Origin: an uncultured Roseburia sp.
GTDB lineage: Bacteria; Bacillota; Clostridia; Lachnospirales; Lachnospiraceae
Direction: 5' to 3'
NCBI GenBank assembly: GCA_947567625.1
Contig: CANONN010000030.1
Coordinates: 1 to 40,866 of the forward strand
DNA length: 40,866 bases
A program made the translations under genes and the position numbers. Below the pieces are notes generated by a model. That model was given only the letters and a program-made list of their open reading frames with translations, was not told the DNA's origin and made no database searches. Every line of letters starts with the position of its first letter. The first letter of the stretch is position 1. This document shows, piece after piece, positions 22,071-40,866 of this stretch.

Positions 22071-22407
22071 GGGCCTGTAATGGTTTCGACAGGGATTATG
22101 AAGCTGGAGAAGCGAGCCGCACGGGATGCGTCAAATTCCACAATTAAAATTAAACGCTGAAGACAATTTAGCATTTGCAGCCTAAGGGCTGTAGTCTGAC
22201 CTAAAACACCCACATTTTGGGATTCAGGCTTCGACTTTGTGGGAAACGATATATGGTAAGCTTTGCCCATATAGGCGTACGATGAAGCTACCAAACCCGG
22301 TACTGTGTCTGTGCAGGACCGGCAGAGGGAATGTCAAATCACAGACTACGCTCGTAGAAGGACAGGGGATTGGTTTTTGGACACGGGTTCGATTCCCGTC
22401 AGGTCCA
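22071..22407 (+). ncRNA. ssrA: Transfer-messenger RNA (tmRNA)
   Basis: One-piece tmRNA of about 337 nt. The 5' end GGGCCTGTAATGGTTTCGAC has the typical tmRNA start and pairs with CAGGTCC (22400-22406) to form a 7-bp acceptor stem with one G-U. The T-arm GGGTTCGATTCCC (22385-22397) is canonical, and A22407 is the discriminator. The 3' CCA is not encoded (CTG follows), so it must be added. The resume frame GCT GAA GAC ... TAA at 22156-22185 encodes AEDNLAFAA. It rescues ribosomes on non-stop mRNA with SmpB, encoded just upstream. Confidence 0.97.
22156..22185 (+). other. ssrA: tmRNA proteolysis-tag reading frame (AEDNLAFAA)
   Basis: Nine codons plus TAA inside ssrA. The tag ends FAA rather than the common LAA, still a nonpolar-Ala-Ala ending expected to be recognised by ClpXP-type proteases. 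The AEDN start matches clostridial tags. Confidence 0.9.
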
Positions 22408-22418
22408 CTGATAAAACT

Positions 22419-31533: not shown

Positions 31534-31556
31534 AACATGGAACTGTTAAAAAAAAT

Positions 31557-31642
31557 GTAACTATGCAGCCTTCGGCATCATAGTTACGGAATCCGTCTCA
31601 TTTAAAGTTTGTCTTCGACAAAGAGCCGGATTCCCGCTTGGC
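31557..31642 (+). repeat. Dispersed structured element, copy 1 (A+B modules)
   Basis: An 86-nt element 93% identical (80/86) to 40781-40866. Module A: GTAACTATG (31557-31565) pairs with CATAGTTAC (31579-31587), with inner GCC-TTC-GGC. Module B: GGAATCCG (31588-31595) pairs with CGGATTCC (31627-31634) and encloses the core CATTTAAAGTTTG (31599-31611) and a TTTGTC/GACAAA hairpin (31608-31622). It lies just after the kinase gene. Confidence 0.85.
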
Positions 31643-31661
31643 TAGATATACGCGTTCTTAC

Positions 31662-31686
31662 GGACTTTGCAGCGAGTGCAAAGTCC
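31662..31686 (+). repeat. Dispersed structured element, C module
   Basis: GGACTTTGCA (31662-31671), loop GCGAG, TGCAAAGTCC (31677-31686): a perfect 10-bp stem followed by the tail GAACTGTTATC. Same loop as at 29.96 kb with a different stem. Confidence 0.8.
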
Positions 31687-31731
31687 TGAGATGAACTGTT
31701 ATCAAAAAATTCTGTTTTATAAAAATTTTGG

Positions 31732-40431: not shown

Positions 40432-40459
40432 TCATTAGCCGGTTTTAAGCTGCCAAAAC

Positions 40460-40589
40460 GTAATAGTTTAGCCTGCGGCTTTTCTGTTGCAGAATCCGCC
40501 CCATTTAAAGTTTGCCTGAGGCAAGGAGGCGGATGCTTTGTTTCTTTGACATGTTGCCTGCAACTGCGCGGCAAGTGCGCAGTTGCAGG
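40460..40589 (+). repeat. Dispersed structured element, diverged copy 3 (A+B+C modules)
   Basis: Module A: GTAATAG (40460-40466) with CTGTTGC (40484-40490), two G-T wobbles, inner AGCC-TGC-GGCT. Module B: ATCCGCC (40494-40500) with GGCGGAT (40528-40534), enclosing the invariant CATTTAAAGTTTG (40502-40514) and a TTGCC-TGA-GGCAA hairpin. Module C: a 13-bp stem 40557-40569 with 40577-40589. Stems differ from copies 1 and 2 but still pair. It lies in the 495-nt gene-free end of the window (40372-40866), which otherwise shows only related elements. Confidence 0.75.
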
Positions 40590-40699
40590 TTTCACTGTTA
40601 CGCCAAAACAGAAAGTGATTGGGACGCTGTTCTTATTATAGGAAAACACAGAAGAAAGTACAAGTCCAAAATGTGGACAGAGGTAACAGGTTAGCCTGC

Positions 40700-40722
40700 A
40701 ACTGTGCACTTGCTGCGCAGTT
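40700..40722 (-). repeat. Dispersed structured element, C module in inverted orientation
   Basis: AACTGTGCA (40700-40708), loop CTTGC, TGCGCAGTT (40714-40722). On the minus strand the loop is GCAAG and the tail reads AGGCTAACCTGTTACC, closely matching the plus-strand tail at 29.98 kb. Confidence 0.65.
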
Positions 40723-40780
40723 AGCAGCCAGTAATGCTGAATAGCAGGGAAGCCGCAGGCCAAATTGTTACGGACAGAGC

Positions 40781-40866
40781 GTAACTATTCAGCCTTCGTC
40801 TTCATAGTTACGGAATCCGGCACATTTAAAGTTTGTCTTCGCCAAAGAGCCGGATTCCCGCTTGGC
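40781..40866 (+). repeat. Dispersed structured element, copy 2, running to the window end
   Basis: 86 nt with six mismatches to 31557-31642. Module A GTAACTAT.../ATAGTTAC and module B GGAATCCGGC (40812-40821) with GCCGGATTCC (40849-40858), two pairs longer than in copy 1 because two changes (T-to-G and T-to-A) fall at the stem top. The core CATTTAAAGTTTG is at 40823-40835. A C module may follow outside the window. Confidence 0.85.

Follow-up and report, generated by a model that had tools for sequence, protein, structure and literature searches.

Elements within the window

The window, a stretch of 40,866 nucleotides, corresponds to contig C30 in the genome of an uncultured Roseburia sp., assembled into 110 contigs, and carries three copies of a dispersed element, each containing the core CATTTAAAGTTTG with zero mismatches (at 31599, 40502, and 40823), as described in the earlier note on this DNA. 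Copy 1, preceded by a histidine kinase gene, is a complete 146-bp MITE of subfamily A on the plus strand (31557–31702), delimited by its ends and by flanking 8-bp direct repeats that agree at 7 of 8 positions, namely AAAAAAAT on the left (31549–31556) and CAAAAAAT on the right (31703–31710). Its left end folds into a hairpin of its own (hairpin 1; 31557–31587, plus strand), followed on the same strand by the core hairpin with the bulge ATTTAAAG (hairpin 2; 31588–31634), located by folding, covariance model and sequence, and by the region of hairpin 3 (31660–31688), assigned from sequence and covariation, with the stem GGACTTTGCA/TGCAAAGTCC and the loop GCGAG. Inspection of copy 1 for transcription signals returned no terminator and two promoter-like sites, against 0.9 expected. 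Copy 2, the diverged copy of the earlier note, is a complete 142-bp MITE of subfamily B (40460–40601, plus strand), in which the core hairpin spans 40491–40537 on the basis of the same three kinds of evidence, and the target duplication GCCAAAAC is identical on both sides (40452–40459 and 40602–40609). The window also contains a fourth related element, 89 bp long, which consists of the right part of subfamily B without the core hairpin. It lies inverted on the minus strand (40683–40771) between exact 8-bp duplications, GGACAGAG, at 40675–40682 and 40772–40779. Finally, copy 3, of subfamily A and on the plus strand (40781–40866), is cut by the contig end at 40866. The element first described from these copies is therefore real, but what was described is only the left part of a complete unit of 142–146 bp.

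Within its 47 nt, the core hairpin has arms of 12 nt, a bulge of 8 nt on one side only, an inner stem of 6 bp, and a triloop. Both stem exchanges reported for the diverged copy are present in the sequence, the outer pair GGAATCCG/CGGATTCC being replaced by ATCCGCC/GGCGGAT and the inner pair TTTGTC/GACAAA by TTGCC/GGCAA. Two imperfections had gone unmentioned, as the inner stem of copy 3 is broken (TTTGTC TTC GCCAAA) and the outer stem of copy 1 contains one T.C mismatch. The three window copies fold better than shuffled sequences on either strand, with z-scores of -2.6 to -4.5 on the plus strand and -1.7 to -4.1 on the minus strand.

The earlier note did not recognise the element as a known RNA class, and Rfam likewise gives no family for it in the window or at 20 other loci, where a TwoAYGGAY RNA and a tRNA were matched elsewhere and nothing on the hairpin. 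At lax thresholds, the window copies gave low matches only, to microRNA, snoRNA, and other models, and the best of these, MIR898, was rejected, scoring 27.1 bits against a gathering threshold of 75 and spanning two neighbouring elements. The sole Rfam match of the window is a tmRNA gene (RF00023, 145.7 bits) at 22071–22410. Among the matches listed in a search of open-licence papers, no title or abstract start concerned the element.

Ends, target duplications, and copy number of the MITE

The genome (3.42 Mb) contains many more copies than the three of the window, with 68 exact cores, compared to none for the reversed pattern, and 86 matches to a covariance model of the hairpin. Alignment of the 68 exact-core copies revealed the inverted ends GTAACnnTTCAGCC on the left and GGCTGAACTGTTAC on the right, the former found in 60 copies and the latter in 48. 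Target duplications were assessed in 42 copies with both ends, the other 26 being left out for a missing end or flank; here, 34 copies are flanked by 8-bp direct repeats that agree at no fewer than 7 positions, 26 of them exactly. Such agreement was reached by 0.12% of control comparisons between left flanks and foreign right flanks, and other widths (5–7 and 9–11 bp) gave at most one exact duplication in 42. Of the bounded copies, 28 measure 146 bp and nine, mostly of subfamily B, 142–144 bp. The target sites display no A+T excess over their flanks (G+C 0.349 versus 0.358), but 30 of 34 duplications have A or T at position 4. Using a crude ORF caller, 44 of 45 copies were placed between genes, 16 of them in divergent gaps and 3 in convergent ones. 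Contig ends lie within 100 bp of a core in 19 counted cases, as expected since assemblers stop at repeats.

The element is thus short, lacks a transposase gene, and occurs in many dispersed copies. By these traits together with its ends and target duplications it belongs to the MITEs, as a new family whose autonomous partner is missing. Counting against this assignment, 31 of 34 loci of the same genome with a lone end have no end pair with a duplication matching at 7 of 8 positions. Hairpin 2 is not needed for mobility, as both the 89-bp element of the window and an 82-bp relative elsewhere (L194) lack it and are nevertheless flanked by exact target duplications. In addition, a lone 31-bp left-end hairpin precedes a full subfamily-B copy at L203 (from 1665). 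Its flanks are almost identical (ggagaaaa), which gives the impression that mobility requires no more than the pair of inverted ends in hairpin 1. At four loci (L020, L033, L047, and L059), elements are arranged head to tail and separated by a single 8-bp target copy, the neighbours at L059 belonging to different subfamilies, and copy 3 of the window begins 1 nt beyond the duplication of the 89-bp element (40772–40781). New insertions seem to be drawn to the ends of older elements.

No transposase gene with MITE ends was found among the IS66 and IS256 families in this genome, whose assembly breaks at repeats, or in the other carriers. The IS66 family, characterized by ends with GTAA and an 8-bp duplication, is on paper the best fit among the candidates, as the MITE shares both features. 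Yet an IS66-derived origin was rejected: an IS66 transposase is absent from this genome and from 4 of 10 other carriers, and MITE-like ends were found at none of the IS66 loci checked, 30 in one set and 6 of 15 in another, the loci spanning about 3–4 kb, so that some ends may be missed. IS256 was set aside as a partner as well, being absent from this genome and from 4 of 11 other carriers. A search for a phage or plasmid origin by blastn gave no match.

A covarying hairpin and its leader-like relative

The earlier note had proposed a search of this genome and other Lachnospiraceae with a covariance model, and the model built here, of a 37-nt hairpin, has matches in 22 genomes out of 397 from the Lachnospiraceae, this one included. 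Beyond the own genome, it gave zero matches in a class-wide sample of 391 genomes. As the larger genome searches used stricter filters and scored few candidates per genome, these counts are lower bounds. Two exact-pattern matches in Actinobacteria (L118 and L123) were attributed to chance, as their arms do not pair. The arms of 11 matches to the core pattern in viral contigs are likewise unpaired, and these matches by eye resemble coding sequence. Among the sampled genomes, the hairpin is seen only in Lachnospiraceae.

In 57 aligned matches, 97.8% of the cells of hairpin 2 are paired, and both sides have changed in 12 of 13 pairs, giving a covariation score of 0.588 compared to 0.155 (sd 0.013) for shuffled and 0.038–0.113 for slid versions, in an alignment that was fitted to the structure and so favours it. 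In 33 of the 57 rows the bulge sequence is ATTTAAAG, and in most others it is close to this, while the triloop is TNC in 50 rows and closed by C-G in 52. Hairpin 3 behaves similarly, its loop being GCGAG or GCAAG and its stems covarying (98.2% paired, score 0.880 versus 0.236) across 11 sequences picked by hand. The earlier note was therefore right about a concerted change of stems around parts that stay constant.

An extended-core scan of named genomes returned relatives of the MITE and three loci without MITE ends (L103, L106, and L114), where the arms differ in sequence and still pair. L106 and L114 carry a further hairpin in common and, on the opposite strand, directly precede a ribosome-binding site and start codon. 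A two-hairpin model derived from the leader loci matches in 18 of 397 genomes of the family, five of which (the own genome, G342, G364, G366, and G379) are MITE carriers matched via the MITE. Eubacterium sp. MSJ-21 is one isolate with the sister element. A start codon, defined as one with a Shine-Dalgarno-like motif and within 120 nt, follows on the sense side in 48 of 67 copies at a median distance of 19 nt and on the antisense side in 4 of 67; the 67 remain of 83 matches after leaving out 13 below 34 bits and three repeat fetches, and both members of tandems were counted. Of the sense-side starts, 33 of 48 lie 11–21 nt from the end of the element, so that this sister element holds a leader-like position and orientation before genes. 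Judging from their first residues, the downstream genes presumably include gyrA, infB, der, crt, bcd, ppk, feoA, and queC.

The sister element covaries strongly (97.8% paired, 0.564 versus 0.163), and wobble pairs favour its sense strand. There, 52 G.T cells stand against 9 A.C in 70 rows, the first of a set of 83; three places occur twice among these rows, and in 32 non-redundant rows, which are free of such repetition, the ratio is 18 to 1 (p 8e-5), falling to only 15 versus 8 when distinct column types are counted. By position and wobble, the sister element looks like a leader RNA. It is dispersed as well, since near-identical copies in genome G261 (six loci, identity rounding to 1.00) precede six different starts at 18–20 nt; between different genomes, identity averages 0.59. 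No consistent target duplication accompanies it, a repeat of at least 7 positions occurring in 12 of 62 copies, several of them tandem, against 6.5% in the control. Tandem copies about 77–84 bp apart were observed at L295, L305, and L309. In genome G266, two leader copies (L169 and L188) lie within a longer common repeat and may be part of another mobile unit. The TwoAYGGAY RNA mentioned above (RF01731; L106, 3978–4144) is separated from the leader element by about 1.1 kb.

The Y1 family, whose transposases use DNA hairpins, was considered as a source of the sister element. It was rejected, as a Y1 transposase is present in three of the eight sister-family genomes and absent in five, and the hairpin was found at none of five Y1 loci in sister-family carriers.

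The hairpin as RNA, DNA, or cargo

According to the earlier note, the element is a selected RNA or DNA structure. The many further copies, the covariation, and the lack of an Rfam family agree with that claim, but the inverted ends and 8-bp duplications of a MITE speak against an unclassified intergenic RNA as an account of these copies. If the copies of this genome were non-coding or regulatory RNAs, each kept for its structure, the RNA strand would be expected to tolerate G.U pairs and not A.C mismatches. The strong covariation throughout the family and the good folding of the three window copies would suit such RNAs. Yet, on the strand given in the earlier note, wobble shows no such asymmetry, with 13 G.T against 21 A.C cells and 38 other mismatches in 53 of 68 copies, those cut or with fewer than 13 of 18 Watson-Crick pairs being left out; rows of other genomes that are not leaders gave 7 G.T and 4 A.C. 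Nor is there a significant orientation bias towards gene starts, as 18 copies face one way and 11 the other among 47 own copies (p 0.26), and 13 and 12 among 37 matches elsewhere, so that no fixed position or orientation before genes was found in either set. Together with the target duplications, this makes it very unlikely that each copy is maintained as RNA. Nothing points to RNA in the MITE copies themselves; the duplications, the lack of strand or orientation bias, and the dispensable hairpin suggest that most of them are insertions of a structured MITE with almost no selective effect. The RNA reading is thus half supported, an RNA role finding support only in the sister element of other genomes.

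The missing strand asymmetry in the MITE would also fit a hairpin that acts as DNA, extruded or single-stranded, and serves as a site for the transposition machinery or for a host DNA-binding protein. GNA triloops make very stable DNA minihairpins, and the TNC triloop with its C-G closing pair corresponds to GNA on the other strand. However, target duplications are perfect even in elements that lack the hairpin, and the asymmetry and position of the sister family are RNA-like. The absence of Y1 transposases from five of its eight carriers, with no Y1 locus bearing the hairpin, likewise counts against such a reading, which we regard as unlikely. The stem covariation of the MITE could alternatively be mutational in origin. 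Quasi-palindrome correction copies changes between arms, so template switching could transfer one arm's change to the other before a copy spreads; every arm of the element is an inverted repeat, and copies within the genome mismatch freely. Such correction should erase a one-sided bulge, yet ATTTAAAG persists in more than half of the rows, and the position of the sister family would be left unexplained, for which reasons this origin, too, appears doubtful.

It is highly probable, instead, that the repeat is a non-autonomous MITE and that hairpin 2 is cargo, shared with the leader element of other Lachnospiraceae; from likeness in sequence and structure, the hairpin in the two elements would be of common descent. 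The ends, target duplications, copy number, and position of the MITE are shown by the data above. A transposase acting in trans would recognize the inverted ends GTAACnnTTCAGCC and insert the unit of 142–146 bp by an 8-bp staggered cut, mostly between genes. The body of the MITE consists of hairpins in which loop or bulge is kept as the stems change together, as seen for hairpins 2 and 3, and hairpin 2 is a module carried along and dispensable for movement, as the elements that lack it show. In the second family, the same hairpin sits on the opposite strand immediately upstream of the ribosome-binding site and shows statistical marks of constraint at the RNA level. The bulge CUUUAAAU beside a short triloop stem may be where mRNA leaders are bound or processed. 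Copies of the MITE would then act as leader sites only where transcribed in that orientation by chance, and most copies of this genome would be near-neutral insertions. More tentatively, and with less than even confidence, it can be speculated that a portable RNA hairpin, composed of a stem, a triloop hairpin, the one-sided bulge, and a stem, has spread through Lachnospiraceae in two ways, in MITEs with 8-bp duplications and as a dispersed leader located in sense orientation about 16–21 nt before the starts of unrelated genes, acting on translation or mRNA decay. If so, a mobile leader would link unrelated genes in one post-transcriptional network.

Bacterial MITEs are short and highly base-paired and are sometimes active as RNA, according to reviews (PMC2229807, PMC10969869). 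Correia/NEMIS, RUP, ERIC, and QMITE2 resemble the present element in length (about 100–200 bp), inverted ends, target duplications, intergenic position, and strong base pairing (PMC2229807, PMC10969869). Unlike them, the present element has other ends and fixed loops whose stems covary from one subfamily or species to another, and it shares one of its hairpins with a separate leader element. The sister family in turn resembles REP/RAYT elements, which carry a GTAG motif, in being dispersed and tandem and in often having GTAG or GCAG before the hairpin. It differs from them in that most carriers have no Y1 gene, none adjoins the hairpin, and copies precede Shine-Dalgarno sites. In position and covariation, it is similar to the cis-regulatory leader RNAs of Rfam, but it has no Rfam match, its downstream genes are unrelated, and many copies are concentrated in few genomes.

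What sets the system apart is the compensatory change of stems around a nearly fixed bulge, in a hairpin common to a transposon and a leader-like element, and the nearly constant distance that the latter keeps from the ribosome-binding sites behind it. Should the hairpin function in mRNA, it would give common gut anaerobes a mobile means of control, and the acquisition, carriage, and transfer of a leader RNA by a transposon would become directly open to study. As for the age of the MITE insertions, L110 and L059, which stem from different assemblies, contain a subfamily-B copy at apparently the same site, and some insertions are therefore older than the split of the two assemblies.
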